Positions 42,022 through 52,783 of a DNA stretch of 64,000 nucleotides are shown piece after piece. Made by a program: the position numbers and the translations under genes. The notes beneath the pieces were generated by a model. It saw only the letters and a list, made by a program, of their open reading frames with translations, made no database searches and had not been told where the DNA came from. This DNA is from Alloalcanivorax xenomutans (GTDB lineage Bacteria; Pseudomonadota; Gammaproteobacteria; Pseudomonadales; Alcanivoracaceae). The stretch spans positions 1-64,000 of the forward strand of contig NZ_OBMO01000011.1 in the NCBI RefSeq assembly GCF_900217905.1. Direction: 5' to 3'. How positions within the stretch are numbered: position 1 is the stretch's first letter; the number at the start of each line of letters is the position of its first letter.

Positions 42022-42756
42022 CTAGCCGAAGTTGCAGCAGCGAAAAAACTGGCCGCCCGCCATGGAGGACATGGAATCCGGTAGCGGAAGGTTGGTGACC
42101 CGGCAGAGGCCGGCGGCATCGGAGATAACCCACTTGCGGCCCCGGCCGCTGATCATATCGCTTTCCCGGAAGCGGGCCAGCAATCTGGAAAGCGTTTCCG
42201 GGGACATGTTCAATTGCCTGGCCAGAACCTTGACGCTGACCGGCAGGGTCAGCCAATGGCTTTTTTGTTCCTGGATCAAGTCAAGGAGGTACATCACCAA
42301 TCGTTGGCTGGCATTGGTCACGGTCAAATGATCGAAGCGATTGACCGCCTGATACAACCGGCCCGACATCTGCTCCAGCAGATAGAGAGCAAAGCGGGAA
42401 TCGTTGGTGGCCAGTTCGACGAGACCTTCTTTTTGTAACCGGTAAAGATCGCAGTCGCTCTCCGCCTGGGCGGAGAGCGGGTAGACGCAGGGGTTGGAAA
42501 ACATGGCGGTTTCGGCGATCAAATCCCCCTCCCCCAAGACCTGGTAGACCTTGTCCTCACCGTCCAGGCCGGCACGGTAAAGGCGAACGATTCCCGTCTT
42601 TACCAGGAAGAATGCGTGTGCCTCATCACCTGACGCAAACAAATGTCCACCGCACGGCACGGATATGGAATGCGCGCCCCGCGTGATGACCCGCAAGGCC
42701 GGTAATGCCACCCCGGAAAACAGGGCGGTCTTGCTCAGTGCTTCGATTACGGACAC
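42022..42756 (-). CDS. Crp/Fnr-family transcriptional regulator
   Basis: A 244-residue regulator: a cNMP-binding-type beta domain (about residues 15-120; GEGDLIAETAMF) and a C-terminal winged HTH (VKVLARQLNMSPETLSRLLA). The Fnr-type N-terminal cysteine cluster for an iron-sulfur centre is absent. The tail carries an unusual FFRCCNFG. It is convergent with the SDR and divergent from the iron-regulated cassette, its start lying 37 bases from the Fur box, so it may be iron-responsive or regulate that cassette. Confidence 0.9.
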   Translation of the reverse strand: MSVIEALSKTALFSGVALPALRVITRGAHSISVPCGGHLFASGDEAHAFFLVKTGIVRLYRAGLDGEDKVYQVLGEGDLIAETAMFSNPCVYPLSAQAESDCDLYRLQKEGLVELATNDSRFALYLLEQMSGRLYQAVNRFDHLTVTNASQRLVMYLLDLIQEQKSHWLTLPVSVKVLARQLNMSPETLSRLLARFRESDMISGRGRKWVISDAAGLCRVTNLPLPDSMSSMAGGQFFRCCNFG

Positions 42757-42792
42757 GGCCCACCCACCGAACTGATAAAAGTCATTTTTGTT

Positions 42793-42807
42793 TGAGAATG
42801 ATTATCA
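42793..42807. promoter_or_regulatory. Fur box
   Basis: TGAGAAT-G-ATTATCA matches the 7-1-7 Fur consensus TGATAAT-N-ATTATCA in all but one base (G for T in the first arm). It lies 61 bases upstream of the first secreted-protein gene and 37 upstream of the divergent Crp/Fnr start, overlapping the expected promoter. Confidence 0.88.
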
Positions 42808-42867
42808 GATGATAGGCTCTCCTGTCTTCAGGAGCAAGGAACGACCTTTCATCTTCGGAGAAATGCC

Positions 42868-43404
42868 ATGAAACCGCTTCTTAGCATTGCCACGATTCTG
42901 GGGATCTTCACGCTGCAACTGGGCGCCGGCGCGATGGCCGGAACCCCCGGACTGACCGGCGCCTACTATGGTGATTATCTGATTCAGGTCAGGACCACCG
43001 ACGACAACACCATTTGCGCCACCGGCCTGGCTTATTACGACTGGGACTGGGATTTTGATAACGCGGAAATGACCATCACCAACGGCCAGGTGAACGCCAG
43101 CTTTCTGGGCATATCCGGCATTTTCAATTACGCCTTGACCGATATCAGCTCCGGGAGCACGACGATTCCGTTTACCGATAACGGCGATGGTACCTATTCG
43201 TTCAATTACAACTTCAAGGTGTTCAATCCGCTGTTTGGCAACCCCAACAAGGATACCGGGATCACGCTGGAGATCACCGACAGCGGTGGTGTTCTGATCA
43301 TCGATACCATCGATTCCGATGGCGACGGGGTCATCGGGCACAACCTTCCGGCCTCGCCATTCCCGGCTAATTTGTCCATTGAACTGACCGGCTCCGCTTA
43401 CTGA
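42868..43404 (+). CDS. Secreted protein A of the iron-regulated cassette
   Basis: A 178-residue secreted protein (signal ending GAGAMA). Its mature domain starts AGTPGLTGAYYGDYLIQV and has a tryptophan-rich pattern (YDWDWDFDNAEMTI), FTDNGDGTYSFNY, NPLFGNPNKDTGITLEIT and IDTIDSDGDG. The same sequence of landmarks opens the proteins encoded at 43469 and 48153. Here it is nearly the whole protein, so it defines the domain boundary. No known haemophore or siderophore-binding family is recognised. It is the first gene after the Fur box, so it should be expressed in iron limitation. Confidence 0.75.
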   Translation: MKPLLSIATILGIFTLQLGAGAMAGTPGLTGAYYGDYLIQVRTTDDNTICATGLAYYDWDWDFDNAEMTITNGQVNASFLGISGIFNYALTDISSGSTTIPFTDNGDGTYSFNYNFKVFNPLFGNPNKDTGITLEITDSGGVLIIDTIDSDGDGVIGHNLPASPFPANLSIELTGSAY

Positions 43405-43468
43405 CAGGCAACCGGCGAAGGCGGGCATGCCAGGCGTGCCCGCCACCGTAAACATCAGGATTGCTCCC

Positions 43469-45391
43469 ATGAAAGCTGATACCAGATTGAGAATGGTCGC
43501 GCGCGTTGCCGCCGTCATCCTTGCATTGCAAAGCGCTCTCGGCCTGGCCGGGACCACGGGGCTGAACGGTACCTATATCGGTCGTTATTCCCTGCATATG
43601 AACAGTCCCATTACCTTACCGGCGGAGATTCCGCGGGCGCCGATCAACCAGTTGTTGACCAGCCCGTACGATAACAGCACTTACTACAACCGGCTTGGGG
43701 GCAGTCGTTCCACGCAGTATTGGCAGTGGGACTTTGACAACAAAACGATCACTCTCGGAGGAGGGTGGATATATGCCTTGCAGACGGCCTCGCCGCCGTT
43801 CCAGTTGTTCAGCCCGGGTCGGGAGCGAATCGATGGGCAGCTCTTTCCGGAAAAGACGCCTGATCCATCCGAGGTGACCGGCACTTTCATGGACAATGGC
43901 GACGGTACATACACCGCGCAATTCGCCTTACAGATCTTCCTTGATTTCGCCGGCTACCCTCTCGGCGTGATCACCACGGATTTCGAGATACAGGAAGCCG
44001 ATGATGGCAGGCTTTCGATCACCACTCTTGATGGGCCTGATGGTGACAGGATTCCGGGGCGCTGGTTGCCGGCCATGTTCGAGGGGCAACCCAACGCGGT
44101 GTTTCCCTTCCGGGTCTCTCCCCAGTTCGAAAGCGCGGTGATGTACCCGGACGATGGTGCGGACAGTAACGGCGATGGCGTGACCGATGCCCAGGCACAG
44201 GCCTATGGCGTAGCCGTCGATACCGTTCTGGACGTTGCCAGGCGCGGTGACATCGTCACCATGCCGATCGATGCCGACAACGACGGTATCGCCGATTTGA
44301 TCGAAGGCGCCAACGGCGCGGCGGATGATTCCGTGGCTGCCGGCATACAGCTGCTTGACGGGCGCTTGGTGACGTTGACCAACAGCAGGGGAAACCGCTT
44401 TCAATTGGGCAATACCGTCACCGGCATCGACACCCGTTATTTTGAACCCGGCTCGGTGGGCGAGTCCTTGCCCCTTATTGCCGGAGACGGCGCGGAGCTG
44501 AGCTACCATCTGGGCCAGATTCAGTTTGCCACCACCGCCAGGGATACCGATTGGGACCGGTGGAACAAGGAATTCATCGAGCCGTATGCGGGGGAATATC
44601 TCACCGCCAAGAAAGACTGGTTGTTCCGCAAGGCTGACTACGAGGCGTATAGGGACAGTCTCGGGGATCAACCGACCGAGCAGCAACAGACGTTGCTGGC
44701 GCGCAAGAAGACGCTGATGGACAACCATGCCGCCAGTATGGAACTGGCCCGGCCCGCGTTCGAAGCCGGAATCAGCGCGTGGCGTGCGCAGGGAACCGGA
44801 CTTTTCGGCGAAGCCTTCGAAAATGACTTTGAAGGGTTCCTGGATGAAGCGGGTATTGTCGACTACGTCAAGCTGGGCGAAGAGCTGTCCGACGGCACGG
44901 TGGTGTATCGCCTGCTTCCCGATGCGCCACCCATGCAGCTGGAATTCGCCGGGGGGATCCCGGAAGGGCTCCGGTTGTTCACCGTCCGGCGCGTGCTCAA
45001 CAGTACCTCCGAGGTGATCAACGGAGAGGAAATTCTGGCACCGACCATCTGGGCCAGCCTGGCGGTGGAGGTGCCGTATACCCGGCTTGACGAACAGAGC
45101 GTGCGGTTCACGGTTTCCACCCATATGTTTTCACCCATTGATGAAGACCAGGACATCGTCGCGCTACCGGACGATTACCCCTACGAGGACGGCGGGCGAC
45201 TGGTCAACCTGGTGCTCGCCACCACCGAGCCAGAAGATTCCGGCGGGGACGGGGACGGAGGCGGAGATGGCGGCGGCGATGGTGATGGTAATGACGGCGC
45301 CGGTGGTGGCTCCGGTTCCGGGGGTGGCGGCACTCTCCCCCTGGGATTGCTGGGGTTGATTTCAGTCTTGCTCATCCGCCGCAAGAGATAG
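43469..45391 (+). CDS. Secreted protein B with GlyGly-CTERM-like anchor
   Basis: 640 residues; ATG at 43469 behind CAGGA, signal ending SALGLAG. The N-terminal 220 residues carry the cassette domain (AGTTGLNGTYIGRYSLHM; YWQWDFDNKTITLGG; MDNGDGTYTAQFALQIF). A calcium-binding-like DADNDGIADLIEG segment lies at about residue 280. Residues 360-480 are helical. The C-terminus is an acidic Gly/Asp run, then a GGGTLPLGLLGL hydrophobic helix and RRKR, a rhombosortase-type GlyGly-CTERM sorting signal. Surface attachment or release is therefore expected. Function is unknown. Confidence 0.75.
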   Translation: MKADTRLRMVARVAAVILALQSALGLAGTTGLNGTYIGRYSLHMNSPITLPAEIPRAPINQLLTSPYDNSTYYNRLGGSRSTQYWQWDFDNKTITLGGGWIYALQTASPPFQLFSPGRERIDGQLFPEKTPDPSEVTGTFMDNGDGTYTAQFALQIFLDFAGYPLGVITTDFEIQEADDGRLSITTLDGPDGDRIPGRWLPAMFEGQPNAVFPFRVSPQFESAVMYPDDGADSNGDGVTDAQAQAYGVAVDTVLDVARRGDIVTMPIDADNDGIADLIEGANGAADDSVAAGIQLLDGRLVTLTNSRGNRFQLGNTVTGIDTRYFEPGSVGESLPLIAGDGAELSYHLGQIQFATTARDTDWDRWNKEFIEPYAGEYLTAKKDWLFRKADYEAYRDSLGDQPTEQQQTLLARKKTLMDNHAASMELARPAFEAGISAWRAQGTGLFGEAFENDFEGFLDEAGIVDYVKLGEELSDGTVVYRLLPDAPPMQLEFAGGIPEGLRLFTVRRVLNSTSEVINGEEILAPTIWASLAVEVPYTRLDEQSVRFTVSTHMFSPIDEDQDIVALPDDYPYEDGGRLVNLVLATTEPEDSGGDGDGGGDGGGDGDGNDGAGGGSGSGGGGTLPLGLLGLISVLLIRRKR

Positions 45392-45501
45392 GTGCCGTGG
45401 GACGCCTGGCGTCCCTTATCACCATGACAAATGTCATTGAGGTTCCGGGAGTTGGTGAGCAATGATTCGGCTTTGCAACCGTTTAATGAGAGAGAATCGA
45501 A

Positions 45502-45942
45502 TTGGAATACGGAGTACTGATCACGCTGCACCTGTTCTGCGCGATCTTCTTTATCGGCATCGTGGCGTTCGAGGTGATCTTTCTGGAGAACATCCGTCGG
45601 TATCTGCCCGCCGGTATGATGACGCTGGTGGAGGAGGGCATTCACCGAAGAGCGCGAAAGATCATGCCCTATGTGGTGGGGCTGCTCTTCCTCACCGGGA
45701 TCGGATTACTGGTGAGGGTGTATTGGGCTGGCTGGTATCCTCCATTTTCCAGCGTTTTTTCCACACTCCTGACGGTGAAGATTGTGCTCGCGCTGAGTGT
45801 CCTGGTGCATTTCATTACCGCCATCCGGGCCTCCGTCTGTGGGAGTATGAGCTCCCTGCGCTTCAAGATTACCCACTACAGTGTTTTCATCCACATGGTG
45901 CTGATTGTGGTGTTGGCCAAGGCCATGTTCTACCTGACCTGA
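45502..45942 (+). CDS. Four-helix inner-membrane protein with membrane histidines
   Basis: 146 residues, four predicted transmembrane helices (about 5-26, 55-75, 86-108, 122-143). Histidines lie at 10 (helix 1), 103 (helix 3), 125 and 131 (helix 4), with H48 in a loop, a pattern that could hold haem or metal, as in CopD- or cytochrome b561-like families; the assignment is tentative. The start is TTG at 45502: a stop lies at 45487 and the first ATG would remove the first helix. GAGAGA precedes the TTG. The gene lies 34 bases before the receptor. Confidence 0.7.
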   Translation: MEYGVLITLHLFCAIFFIGIVAFEVIFLENIRRYLPAGMMTLVEEGIHRRARKIMPYVVGLLFLTGIGLLVRVYWAGWYPPFSSVFSTLLTVKIVLALSVLVHFITAIRASVCGSMSSLRFKITHYSVFIHMVLIVVLAKAMFYLT

Positions 45943-45976
45943 TCGATCCGCCTTGCCCTCCGTGGGAGGCGAGCCG

Positions 45977-48106
45977 ATGATCCGGCGTTGTTTGTCGTGT
46001 TGCCTGCTCGTTGCCACAACCGTTCTGGCGGCGGAGCCTAACCGTCTGGATCCGGTGACGGTCGAAGCCGGTAACGAAGCGGTGCATGAAAAGCGGGAAC
46101 TGCAACGCCGGCTCGATGACGTGCCCGGTGCGACCAACCTGATCGATCCCGGAGAGAAGGAGGGTAGCCAGGCTACTCTGGCCAGGGTGCTGGATTTTGA
46201 GCCGGGGATCATCATCCAGGAGTTCTTCGGCGGCAATGATCAGCCAAGACTGAATATCCGTGGATCAGGCATTCAGGATAATCCGGTCAGTCGTGGCATC
46301 CAGATTCTTTACGACGGTCTGCCGATCAATCAGGCGGACGGTTCCTTTATTATCGGCCTGATTGATCCCGAGCAAACCAGCCTGATCTCCGTGTACCGTG
46401 GCGCCAACGCGCTCCGATATGGTGGTACCACTCTCGGCGGCGCCATTGATTTCAATATGCGCACGGCACGAAACAGTCCGTCCTCGGTCTCTCTGGAAGG
46501 GGGATCCTGGAACACCTGGCGGGGCAGTGTCGCCCTGGCTGAAAAAAAAGAGCAATGGGATGGCTACATACGCGCCGGGTATCAGGCATCCGACGGTTGG
46601 CGAAGCCACAGTGGCGCGCAAAGGAACACCTTCGTTGCCAACTTCGGATACCGGGGCGGGAACTGGATCAACCGAACCTATCTGAATCTGGCGGATAACC
46701 GTTTCGACATCCCCTTTCTGCTTACCAAGGACAGGGCCTTGTCCGATCCAGACTCGGTGATGGGGGACTACGCTGATCCGGACAATAAAAGCACAGAGGA
46801 TTTTCTCAACGTCCGGGTGCGCCAGCCGGAACGGGACACCCGGCAGACCAGACTGGCCAACAAAACCATCTGGTACACGGAACAGGCTTCCCACAGTCTG
46901 GGGTTGTACGCTGAGTCAATACGGGACCGGTTCAAGAATCCGGCCTGGCAAGCCAATACCGAGGCGGGCAATTTCGGTCTGGATTACGGGACGGAAGTGT
47001 TTGTTCCCAATACGGATGGAACGGAGGCTCGCTATCAGGTATTCCTGTCCGCCAACTCTGGCGCCATGCCCAGGGAATACTATCTGGTGCATCCCGACGA
47101 CGGCAGTCTGGAGAGGCGCTTCGCCGATCTCGATTTGCGGGCCAGCAACGTGGTCGGAGGAGCGCAGGTCAATTATCCCCTGTCCCGACGGTGGCAGGCA
47201 GTGGCCGCGTTTCAGTATGCGTGGCACCAACGGAATGTCGATGATGAGAGAGCCCCTGGTCTGCTCGACAGCGAGCTGACCTATCGCGCTCTCAATCCAA
47301 AGCTCGGACTGATTTATTCGCCTTTCGCCGGCACGCATTACTACGCCAATGTGAGCCGGAGTTCGGAAGCTCCCACCTTTTGGCAATTGGTGGACCTGGG
47401 GCCGGGGTCGGTGCCGGCGTCGCCGGCGAGCCTGTATCTGATGACCAAGCCCCTCGAAATGCAGATGGCGAACACCTTTGAAGTGGGCGCCCGGCGGATT
47501 GCCGGCTCCTTCGCCTGGGAAGGGGCGTACTTTTATTCGCGGGTCAAGGATGAGCTGATCGCGGAAGTTCAGAACTTCGCCATTGACGGCACCACGGTGA
47601 ACTACGATCACGATACGGTGCATCAGGGTGTTGAACTGGCGGTGAGCGCCCGAAGCGGGCGTGGACTGTTCCGCTCCGGAGACTGGCTCTCCGTGCGTGG
47701 GGTCTACAACTACAGCGACTTCCGTTTCCATGGCGGGCGGTATGACGGTAAGCGGATCGCCGGCATTCCGGTTCACCTGGTGACCGCTGAATTGGGATAT
47801 CACTGGTCGCGGCGGCTTGGCCTGACACTGTCCGCCCGTTGGCAGCCGCAAGACACCCATGTCGATCACTACAACGCGGGACTGAAGCAGGACAGCTATC
47901 TGCTGCTCGGGGCCGCTTTGTCATATCGTCCGACGCCATCTTGGGAGTGGTTCCTGGATCTGCGCAATCTCACCAACGAGACCTGGCAGACGGCCTACGT
48001 AGTCCGCGGGCTGTCGGCGGAAGATCCCGAGTCCAGCCTGACCGCTCCGACCTTCGTGCCCGGCGCGGAATTTCACGGTTACGCCGGAGTAACTTACCGA
48101 TGGTGA
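45977..48106 (+). CDS. TonB-dependent outer-membrane receptor
   Basis: 709 residues. The ATG at 45977 follows GGGAGGCGAG; a TTG at 45953 is rejected. After the signal (residues 1-19) comes a TonB-box-like DPVTVEA, then the plug (LARVLDFEPGIIIQEFFGGN; RLNIRGSGIQDNPVSRGIQI; LISVYRGANALRYGGTTLGG) and a 22-strand-type barrel ending in a tryptophan (AGVTYRW). It should take up a ligand from outside using TonB energy. The Fur box suggests an iron carrier or haem, but no ligand-specific motif is evident. Confidence 0.92.
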   Translation: MIRRCLSCCLLVATTVLAAEPNRLDPVTVEAGNEAVHEKRELQRRLDDVPGATNLIDPGEKEGSQATLARVLDFEPGIIIQEFFGGNDQPRLNIRGSGIQDNPVSRGIQILYDGLPINQADGSFIIGLIDPEQTSLISVYRGANALRYGGTTLGGAIDFNMRTARNSPSSVSLEGGSWNTWRGSVALAEKKEQWDGYIRAGYQASDGWRSHSGAQRNTFVANFGYRGGNWINRTYLNLADNRFDIPFLLTKDRALSDPDSVMGDYADPDNKSTEDFLNVRVRQPERDTRQTRLANKTIWYTEQASHSLGLYAESIRDRFKNPAWQANTEAGNFGLDYGTEVFVPNTDGTEARYQVFLSANSGAMPREYYLVHPDDGSLERRFADLDLRASNVVGGAQVNYPLSRRWQAVAAFQYAWHQRNVDDERAPGLLDSELTYRALNPKLGLIYSPFAGTHYYANVSRSSEAPTFWQLVDLGPGSVPASPASLYLMTKPLEMQMANTFEVGARRIAGSFAWEGAYFYSRVKDELIAEVQNFAIDGTTVNYDHDTVHQGVELAVSARSGRGLFRSGDWLSVRGVYNYSDFRFHGGRYDGKRIAGIPVHLVTAELGYHWSRRLGLTLSARWQPQDTHVDHYNAGLKQDSYLLLGAALSYRPTPSWEWFLDLRNLTNETWQTAYVVRGLSAEDPESSLTAPTFVPGAEFHGYAGVTYRW

Positions 48107-48152
48107 AGGGGCGCCACGGCAGCCCCCGATATGGAACGAGGAAGGGGGTGAT

Positions 48153-49511
48153 ATGAAATTGAAGACTGCTTTGATGAGTGCTCCGCTGTTGATCATCTGC
48201 GGCGCGGCTATGGCCGGGACTCCCGGCCTGACCGGTGTCTATCATGGTCAGCACCTGCTCACCATGCGAGGTTGTCCCGGAGCTTGCCAGGCCGGCAGTG
48301 AGCTGGTGCTGGGCAAAGGCATCCAAAATGCGGACTGGAGCTGGAACTTCGATGAGGGGTGGGTGCTGATTCGCGGCACCACCCTGACCGTGGGATTCGA
48401 TTACGAGGTCCAATCCATCGGTAATCAGGGGCAAGGGGATGATCGCTTTACCGCCGGGTTCACCGATAATCTGGATGGTACGTACACGGTTTATCACGGC
48501 TTTCAGATCTACAACCCGAATGTCGGTAATCCCCGTGCCGATACCAGCACCCGGTTCGAGATCACCGAGGACCCGGATAACCCCAATCGTATCTTGATCA
48601 TCACCGTGGATGATGAGCCGGCGGGCGTACTCGACGGTATTCCGGGGACTCAGATCACGGGTGTTTTTCCGATGACCGTGCAGCCCGACTTCGAAGGTTA
48701 CGCGCGCCTGGAAGGCAGCAGCAGCGGAGGTGATGGCATCAGTGACCAGTTGAAGGAACAGCTGGGGCTCAACCCGGATGCCGATAACGCGGATACCGAC
48801 GGTGATGGCTTGCCCGATGCGGAGGAACTGGGGGAGGACCCGGAGAACCCGGTGGACACGGATGCGGATGGTCTCATCGACGCCCTGGAGCCTGGCGCGG
48901 CGGCTCTGGATCCCCGGTTGGCAGCCGGTGTGGCGCTGCTCGACGGTATCCCTGGGCGGCAGGTGACTGGAGACGCCTTGTCCGGCACCACCGCCGAGGC
49001 CGCCGTGGGCGAGCCTTGGCGCTTTGCCGGCGTCACCACCGGCTATATGTCCCTGGCCACGGACCCGGACGGAGATTCCTCCATTCCCGATACCACGCGC
49101 GGTGACGCCGGGCTGGAATACCAATACGGATTCATTCGGTTCGATTTGCAGGCAAGCGCCATGACAAGCGAGCCGGTGACGGTGCGTGTTACCTTCCAGG
49201 CACCGCTGCCGGAGTCTTCGCGTCTTCTTCTGTACGCCTCTCAAGTCATCGACGGCAACGAACGCTATCGATTAATGGCGTCCGATGCATATCGACGACT
49301 GAGCGATCATGCGCTGGAGATCCGATTGCATGACAATGGCCCCTGGGATCTGAACCCGGAGGCCGGTGTCCTGGCCTTCGGCGTGGCGCCGGTGGAGAAC
49401 ACCCTGGGAAGTCACCAGGAGAGCTCGGGCAATGGGGGCGGTATAGGTGCGGCTACTCTGGCATTGCTGGCTCTCCTGGCGGCATTCAGGCGCGGGCGCG
49501 TGGTCACCTGA
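48153..49511 (+). CDS. Secreted protein C with GlyGly-CTERM-like tail
   Basis: 452 residues with a signal ending GAAMA, and the cassette domain (AGTPGLTGVYHGQHLLTM; NADWSWNFDEGWVLI; DNLDGTYTVYHGFQIYNPN; GNPRADTSTRFEI). A type-3-repeat-like acidic region follows at about residues 205-245 (NADTDGDGLPDAEELGEDP). About residues 290-420 form a beta domain. The C-terminus SGNGGGIGAATLALLALLAA plus RRGR is again GlyGly-CTERM-like. Its ATG follows a GAAGGGGG site 46 bases after the receptor stop. It closes the cassette. Confidence 0.75.
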   Translation: MKLKTALMSAPLLIICGAAMAGTPGLTGVYHGQHLLTMRGCPGACQAGSELVLGKGIQNADWSWNFDEGWVLIRGTTLTVGFDYEVQSIGNQGQGDDRFTAGFTDNLDGTYTVYHGFQIYNPNVGNPRADTSTRFEITEDPDNPNRILIITVDDEPAGVLDGIPGTQITGVFPMTVQPDFEGYARLEGSSSGGDGISDQLKEQLGLNPDADNADTDGDGLPDAEELGEDPENPVDTDADGLIDALEPGAAALDPRLAAGVALLDGIPGRQVTGDALSGTTAEAAVGEPWRFAGVTTGYMSLATDPDGDSSIPDTTRGDAGLEYQYGFIRFDLQASAMTSEPVTVRVTFQAPLPESSRLLLYASQVIDGNERYRLMASDAYRRLSDHALEIRLHDNGPWDLNPEAGVLAFGVAPVENTLGSHQESSGNGGGIGAATLALLALLAAFRRGRVVT

Positions 49512-49655: not shown

Positions 49656-50588
49656 ATGGCCGGAACCAGTTTGCTGGCGCTGATCGATGACATCGCCACG
49701 TTGCTCGACGACGTATCCCTGATGACCAAGGTGGCGGCGAAGAAGACCGCCGGTGTGCTGGGGGATGACCTGGCCTTGAACGCCGAACAGGTATCCGGCG
49801 TGCGCGCCAATCGGGAATTGCCGGTGGTCTGGGCGGTGGCCAAAGGATCCCTGCTCAACAAAGTGATTCTGGTGCCGGCGGCGCTGCTGATCAGCGCCTT
49901 CGCACCCTGGGCGATCACCGTGCTGTTGATGATCGGTGGGGCTTACCTGTGCTATGAAGGCGCCGAGAAAGTCCTGCACAAGTTCCTGCATAGTGAGGAC
50001 GAGCACAACCGGGAAGAACGGCTCCAGGCGTTACAGGATGCCAAGGTGGATCTGGTCGCCTTCGAGAAGAAAAAAATCAAAGGTGCCATTCGTACCGACT
50101 TCATCCTCTCCGCCGAAATCATCGTAATCTCCCTCGGTGCCATGCAAAGCGCCAGTTTCGGGGTGCAGGTGATTTCTCTCAGTACCCTCGCCTTGCTGCT
50201 GACCATCGGGGTGTACGCGTTGGTGGCCGGGATCGTCAAGCTGGACGACGCGGGCCTGTTGCTGATGAAAACTCCCGAGGACCGTTTCGCCGCTCCGGCC
50301 CGCATTGCTCTCGGCCGGGGATTGCTGACCTTGGCCCCGTGGCTGATGAAAACCTTGTCGGTGCTGGGTACCATCGCCATGTTCCTGGTGGGTGGTGGCA
50401 TTCTGGTTCATGGTATTCCGGGTTCCCACGACTGGGTGCATCACCTTGGCGAACTGGCCGGGGCAGTGTCCTGGGCGATACCGGTGCTGGTGAATCTGAT
50501 CGGTGGATTGATCGCCGGCCTCATCGTGCTGGCGGTGGTGAATCTGGTGGGGCGCTTGCGAGGCAAGAGTGAGGCACAGACCCACTAG
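49656..50588 (+). CDS. DUF808 (YedI-like) membrane protein
   Basis: A 310-residue protein matching the DUF808/YedI family: [40 protein letters not shown] and [16 protein letters not shown] are characteristic. Several hydrophobic segments occur. The role is not known. The ATG at 49656 follows AAGGAGAG. The upstream open frame to 49530 is rejected. Confidence 0.9.

Positions 50589-50893: not shown

Positions 50894-52783
<1,890 letters not shown>

Follow-up and report, generated by a model that had tools for sequence, protein, structure and literature searches.

Organisation of the locus

The window analysed here is a stretch of 64,000 nucleotides from an Alloalcanivorax genome (G000) whose close relatives include A. 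balearicus. Between positions 42868 and 49511 it carries a cassette of five genes, all on the forward strand, which encode a secreted protein A, a secreted protein B, a small membrane protein, a TonB-dependent receptor and a third secreted protein, C (Table 1). A preliminary description of this DNA had placed five same-strand genes behind a Fur box with 14 of 15 matching positions, and both the genes and the box proved to be real. That feature set, however, lacked an alternative start of B (an ATG at 43427 that yields a protein of 654 aa), the divergently oriented gene of a Crp/Fnr-family regulator and two palindromic sites. Downstream lie a gene for a DUF808 membrane protein (49656-50588) and, on the opposite strand, one that by eye encodes an RpoD-like sigma factor (50894-52783), neither of which is apparently part of the cassette.

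Table 1. Features of the cassette and its flank (positions refer to the window)
Feature	Position	Strand	Remarks
Crp/Fnr-family regulator gene	42022..42756	-	divergent from the cassette; cNMP_binding and HTH_Crp_2 domains; predicted dedicated activator
Regulator site CTGATAAAAGTCAT	42772..42785	+	type TTGA(C/T)N4GTCAT; motif likewise ahead of the Fur box at the Psychromonas A and membrane-protein promoters
Fur box TGAGAATGATTATCA	42793..42807	+	one mismatch to TGATAATNATTATCA
A, secreted single-domain protein	42868..43404	+	178 aa; without sorting tail
Barrel domain of A	42937..43398	+	alignment, AF2 model
B, secreted	43469..45391	+	640 aa; barrel domain, Asp-rich linker, helical/C-terminal region, Gly-rich/hydrophobic/basic tail
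Barrel domain of B	43547..44140	+	domain alignment
GlyGly-CTERM-like tail of B	45302..45388	+	Gly/Ser-rich, hydrophobic, RRKR; below model cut-offs
Second regulator site	45424..45437	+	ahead of the membrane protein gene; motif match
Four-helix inner-membrane protein	45502..45942	+	146 aa; TTG start
TonB-dependent receptor	45977..48106	+	709 aa; PF07715 and PF00593; without recognised signalling domain
C, secreted	48153..49511	+	452 aa; barrel domain, TSP3-like linker, choice-of-anchor U-like domain, GlyGly-CTERM-like tail
Barrel domain of C	48213..48704	+	domain alignment
GlyGly-CTERM-like tail of C	49422..49508	+	TIGR03501 sub-threshold; tripartite by inspection

The domain shared by A, B and C

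A, B and C are paralogues, as had been proposed from the motifs at their N-termini. They have in common a secreted domain of about 155 residues, and the pairwise BLASTP comparisons gave E values of 4e-22 for A and C (35% identity over 145 aa), 1e-10 for A and B and 3e-18 for B and C. A is indeed a single-domain protein that consists almost solely of this shared part. In an alignment of 23 domains, a set wider than the one from which the motifs had been read, the core positions of G-x-Y-x-G, W-x-W-x-F and DN-x-DGTY are invariant or nearly so. The family had not been recognised in the preliminary description and is still unnamed: no Pfam or NCBIfam model matched A in the profile search. The choice-of-anchor U-like domain of C scored just under its cut-off, and the Psychromonas C orthologs scored over it. 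Profile matches to filamin/gelation factor in the PDB were discarded, being based on the 20-30 residue DNGDGTY motif alone and not on the domain; likewise, the Vibrio candidates (L034-L036 and G121) matched only through a DNGDGTY-type stretch of long repeat proteins.

An AlphaFold2 model of the domain, built on 16 aligned sequences, is an all-beta antiparallel barrel (mean pLDDT 93.1, pTM 0.86). Foldseek matches to the PDB were weak, the N-lobe of LbpB being the best (E 2e-3), followed by Ail, BcnA, PagP and retinol-binding protein, and VIA-align gave Z scores of 9.4 at best (to BcnA and OmpA), 8-9 to YceI-type proteins, TbpB C-lobes and designed barrels, and 7.6-7.8 to HpuA and HphA. With these values as the upper limit, no closely similar solved structure was found, and a fold search in BFVD returned nothing usable. 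We take the matches of the model to indicate an antiparallel barrel of about eight strands and nothing more specific. The Foldseek list also raised the idea of an integral outer-membrane barrel of the OmpA/OmpX kind, which was rejected on account of the long soluble linker and the tail that follow the domain in B and C.

The top position of the LbpB N-lobe, together with Z scores of 7.6-8.3 for the TbpB, HpuA and HphA barrels, might be taken to mean that the trio are divergent members of the partner family of Slam (type XI) secretion, to which TbpB, HpuA and HphA belong. These scores, however, lie within the range of common barrels and do not rise above those of unrelated eight-stranded ones, OmpA, YceI-type and designed proteins being tied with them. 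Moreover, A, B and C start with Sec-type signal peptides in which, read directly, no lipobox cysteine precedes the mature AGT start, the cassette genes include no DUF560 gene, and the proteins show features of the rhombosortase/type II secretion pathway instead. We have therefore dropped a Slam relationship, which we hold to be highly improbable. The analogy with haemophores and Slam-linked proteins drawn in the preliminary description survives in so far as secreted proteins accompany a receptor, but not as regards the lipobox or a Slam gene in the cassette.

Predicted export and surface anchoring

At their C-termini both B and C have a Gly-rich segment, then hydrophobic residues and arginines, an arrangement which resembles GlyGly-CTERM tails and which, along with the rhombosortase and the link to the type II secretion system (T2SS), had been overlooked in the preliminary description. 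Against TIGR03501, C of the window scored 11 of the 15.5 bits required and B had no direct match; the B ortholog of Psychromonas hadalis passes the same cut-off of 15.5 with 17.7 bits. Rhombosortase (TIGR03902) was found over cut-off in every cassette genome searched, including our own (contig C19). It is present in cassette-free sister species as well and so is not cassette-specific. It was not over cut-off in G474, whose copy of the domain has a PEP-CTERM tail instead.

In Pollutimonas the genes for GspG, GspI, GspL, GspD, GspE and GspF, then GspC and a rhomboid protease, which is the rhombosortase match, stand between the receptor-C genes and an A-B pair. The T2SS cluster, rhombosortase, receptor, A, B, C and regulator of Pollutimonas bauzanensis (L089:443-11698, L031:7571-12520) are found within about 23 kb, a stretch that suggests a dedicated T2SS.

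In Vibrio cholerae, rhombosortase cuts the GlyGly-CTERM tail of VesB, a glycerophosphoethanolamine-containing group is then attached, and surface localisation depends on the T2SS (PMC6219818); the modification reported for VesB is one of 197 Da. The GlyGly-CTERM-like tails, the presence of rhombosortase and the interleaved Pollutimonas cluster together favour export by the T2SS and a lipid anchor at the C-terminus. By analogy with VesB, B and C of the present species should be T2SS substrates that are probably fixed to the cell surface, and the tailless A should be a released one.

Occurrence and phylogeny

The cassette is rare and was met with in a few distantly related bacteria. Its gene neighbourhood is the same in three other Alloalcanivorax species (four sister species in all), and A is present in 4 of the 13 species of the genus, that of the window included. 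Outside Alloalcanivorax the domain was found in P. hadalis, Psychromonas sp. Urea-02u-13 and the betaproteobacterium Pollutimonas bauzanensis; at class level, G486 and G474 were two further genomes with it. In Psychromonas synteny is conserved, the divergent regulator gene being succeeded by those of the membrane protein, A (single or duplicated), B, the receptor and C. The Pollutimonas cassette is split, its receptor and C lying about 19 kb from one A-B pair and a second A-B pair being located on another contig, and the gammaproteobacterial G486 has a reduced form in which a C-like gene precedes the receptor. No relative of A was found in viral contigs and none of C in plasmids.

Receptor orthologs are 46-62% identical (46-47% in Psychromonas, 61% in Pollutimonas, 46% in G486). 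Among 369 genomes of the class, two (ours and G486) have the receptor at E<=1e-100, and the domain occurs in three, which include both of these; the receptor is accordingly accompanied by the domain wherever it was detected in this set, as the pairing postulated in the preliminary description would have it. A, B and C are orthologous between genera: in the domain tree all B proteins are grouped (support 98/96), as are the C proteins of three genera with G486 left out (93/94) and, weakly, the A proteins (63/60). Since these groups cut across genera, the trio travels as a unit, and the three paralogues predate the spread of the cassette. Its scattered distribution would fit horizontal transfer.

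The domain also occurs in PEP-CTERM proteins of G474 and of three genomes of the G486 family (with tails such as VPVPAAVWLFGSGLLGL), sometimes in tandem (loci L037, L051-L057), and no receptor was seen beside these copies in the stretches read. It is thus a wider secreted module, and partnership with the receptor belongs to the cassette rather than to the domain. The same observations bear on a different reading, in which A, B and C are structural or adhesive proteins of the matrix or envelope whose only connection with the receptor is a common operon under iron/redox control. The stand-alone and partly tandem PEP-CTERM copies would suit it, as would the choice-of-anchor domains and the Asp-rich, TSP3-like linkers of the calcium type. 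Yet the trio and one receptor subfamily have a joint inheritance that spans genera and includes the same regulatory sites, and the PEP-CTERM copies form their own side of the tree (95/92), the divergent C-like sequence of G486 being the only cassette sequence beside them. We regard this reading as decidedly unlikely.

Regulatory sites and the Crp/Fnr-type regulator

Three Fur-box matches at up to 3 mismatches occur in the window, compared with 0.52 expected by shuffling. Three sister species retain the box ahead of A, two of them with a different central base, and in Psychromonas Fur-type boxes with 1-2 mismatches precede A, its second copy and the gene of the membrane protein. Fur regulation of the cassette, as previously suggested, is supported by this recurrence at equivalent promoters; Fur is, however, not the sole input, as a Crp/Fnr-type regulator and its site had escaped notice.

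This regulator passes the Pfam thresholds for PF00027 (62 bits) and PF13545 (57.7 bits), and it co-occurs with the cassette: orthologs of 42-47% identity are present in the cassette loci of both Psychromonas and Pollutimonas, and the best matches in the cassette-free Alloalcanivorax species searched reach only 22-23%. Its recognition helix carries the E-x-x-S-R pattern, which is typical of Fnr-type proteins and suits TTGA half-sites. A palindrome TTGA(C/T)AAATGTCAT is located upstream of each of the Psychromonas Fur-type boxes mentioned above, and its Pollutimonas form, TTGACAATTGTCAT, is found ahead of both A-B pairs and in the divergent promoter between gspG and gspC.

In whole-genome searches with the pattern TGAYAWWWGTCAT, all matches in our genome (the two sites at 42772 and 45424) and in G008 lay within the cassette; there were none in the cassette-free sisters G001 and G003 and four in Pollutimonas, three of them within cassette loci; the AT-rich Psychromonas genomes contained more background matches. 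As the pattern was partly derived from these same loci, the informative points are its near absence elsewhere and its recurrence in three genera. The exclusive association with the cassette in the first two genomes and the lack of matches in the two sisters disfavour a global FNR/ANR regulon as the origin of the palindrome. The exact TGAYAAATGTCAT form occurs once outside the cassette in P. hadalis (G508), within a predicted reading frame, and a G486 contig with two such motifs has no cassette genes on it. Judging by the positions of the sites, a dedicated activator would bind TTGA(C/T)N4GTCAT upstream and switch the cassette genes on, and Fur, near the start site, would hold them off at high iron.

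The regulators of the window (42022-42756), of two further loci (L029:455-1216 and L030:8437-9198) and of Pollutimonas (L089:10889-11698) all have an unusual C-terminal CCN motif and a further cysteine near the C-terminus, possibly a metal, Fe-S or redox sensor. A paralog of the regulator with 60% identity is encoded elsewhere in our genome (G000:C35:24296-25024; L088:9290-10042), where narGHJ, two NnrS genes and the genes of a NarK-type transporter and a quinol-type NO reductase are its neighbours, which suggests that this branch of regulators serves NO/nitrate metabolism.

The receptor, the membrane protein and the ligand

The identification of the TonB-dependent receptor in the preliminary description is upheld by scores over cut-off for both the plug (PF07715, 49.9 bits) and the TonB-receptor beta-barrel (PF00593, 109.3 bits). 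The receptor scored under the cut-offs of the haem/haemoglobin-receptor models (63.3 of 316.85 bits for TIGR01785, 73.6 of 323.75 for TIGR01786) and of the PqqU equivalog (60.8 of 1200 bits).

The membrane protein is 60-62% identical in Psychromonas and has conserved histidines at H10, H48, H103, H125 and H131. Its AF2 model has four helices at low confidence (pLDDT 70) and was too poor for a fold search. Homologs occur in unrelated genera (L073:9111-9560, L075:9942-10571, L076:9475-9900), in contexts which include a different TonB receptor with a HAMP/HisKA_3 sensor kinase, NnrS, and the vicinity of a quinol-type NO reductase; they possibly constitute an uncharacterised, NO-linked membrane family.

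Import of a non-haem metal complex (a ferric siderophore, copper or another metal chelate), handled at the inner membrane by a CopD-like protein, is one way to read these data. The best NCBIfam match of the receptor is the TonB-siderophore model, albeit below cut-off (107.7 of 223.5 bits), its nearest solved structures by sequence are YncD/PqqU, and the membrane protein has some similarity to CopD. That similarity is weak, however: it showed in two of three members, with E values no better than 9e-4, and not in the window protein itself; the cassette contains no genes for siderophore biosynthesis or metal handling, and its Psychromonas context is one of haem. We consider this reading unlikely.

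In one Psychromonas genome (locus L030) the cassette has hutX, hutZ and the gene of a haem ABC ATPase as immediate neighbours, each of the three scoring over cut-off, and the permease and binding protein of this transporter are encoded there along with TonB/Exb. The receptor-C genes of Pollutimonas are followed by NnrS; in between, on the same strand (L089:13022-15708), are genes for a phosphonate-type binding protein, whose score falls slightly short of the cut-off, and for a taurine/nitrate-type ABC ATPase. Taken with the nar and NO-reductase surroundings of the regulator paralog, these contexts make a haem or iron supply tied to NO/nitrate metabolism the best guess. In its specific form, A, B and C would be T2SS-exported haemophores for haem or a haemoprotein, employed under iron-poor, NO/nitrate-respiring conditions, a reading to which the Fur boxes and the weak fold matches to the HphA and HpuA barrels also lend some weight. 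Against it, the hut adjacency was seen in a single genome, no hut genes being found beside the cassette in Alloalcanivorax or Pollutimonas; the OmpA, YceI-type and TbpB barrels match equally well, and the receptor falls outside the haem-receptor families. Nor is any histidine conserved in the domain alignment, and the same is true of methionine and cysteine; tyrosine positions are invariant or nearly so, and these could be candidate haem ligands. We would accordingly assign haem about one third of the probability, which still leaves it the leading candidate.

Proposed mechanism

The best reading of the locus, and one that we hold to be somewhat probable, is a capture-and-deliver cassette in which T2SS-secreted and partly lipid-anchored proteins feed one TonB receptor. 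A, B and C would cross the inner membrane by means of their Sec signal peptides and the outer membrane through the T2SS. Rhombosortase would trim the C-terminal tails of B and C, making way for a lipid anchor that holds them at the cell surface, and A would be released or only loosely held. The shared barrel domain may capture an iron-containing ligand, with haem or a haemoprotein as the leading candidate and a ferric chelate or other metal complex as alternatives, and hand it over to the cassette's own receptor. The four-helix protein would be an accessory at the inner membrane, probably redox- or NO-linked. From this point of view the cassette may be regarded as a mobile, doubly regulated nutrient-capture unit. 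A surface system delivering a ligand to the receptor had already been put forward in the preliminary description; it stands as the best reading, as the trio accompanies the receptor, but it does not extend to the domain in general, which occurs elsewhere without one.

A bolder version is that the cassette represents a new class of Gram-negative capture systems, in which T2SS-exported, rhombosortase-anchored barrel proteins serve a dedicated TonB receptor in the manner of haemophores, are switched by Fur together with an NO/redox-type Crp/Fnr protein, and provide haem or iron to cells that respire nitrate or are under NO stress, Pollutimonas having the secretion machine within its cassette. We advance it tentatively and consider it rather doubtful as a whole. 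A receptor partner family that relies on the T2SS and rhombosortase would assign a nutritional role to the GlyGly-CTERM pathway, about which little is understood, and furnish it with a set of substrates that can be followed simply through growth; it would also establish a new domain family and tie haem/iron capture to NO/nitrate respiration through a dedicated, directly testable site.

Comparison with known systems

The routes known to bring the outer-membrane capture proteins of TonB receptors to the surface are the type I, two-partner, Slam and N-terminal lipoprotein ones. The iron-piracy system of Bacteroides belongs to a different phylum and uses N-terminal lipoproteins. Among annotated systems, the cassette corresponds neither to an ordinary haemophore nor to a Slam system, and no TonB-receptor-linked, Fur-controlled set of rhombosortase/T2SS substrates was found in the literature searched. 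With the hut/hmu haem uptake clusters it has Fur control in common and, in one Psychromonas, adjacency, but it differs from them in its hut-free surroundings in the other two genera and in a receptor outside the haem-receptor cut-offs. PqqU/YncD are the closest solved receptors by sequence, but they belong to a different subfamily.

In Bacteroides, binding proteins at the cell surface are paired with TonB transporters to acquire iron, much as in our case (PMC13142918). The Slam/type XI capture proteins with their receptors (HphA-HphR, HpuA-HpuB, TbpB-TbpA) are alike in being iron-regulated secreted or surface barrels that are encoded with the receptor and hand their ligand over to it (PMC8560813). 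In contrast to these, the cassette has neither lipobox nor Slam, encodes three paralogues instead of one and ends two of them in rhombosortase-type tails; sequence relation is not detectable, and the likeness in fold is at the level of the common eight-strand barrel only. With VesB and other GlyGly-CTERM/rhombosortase/T2SS surface proteins (PMC6219818, PMC3237569) it shares the signal peptide, the Gly/Ser-rich, hydrophobic and basic tail, a rhombosortase in the same genome and the expected dependence on the T2SS. The cassette appears to be a novel means by which an iron-containing nutrient is captured outside the cell.
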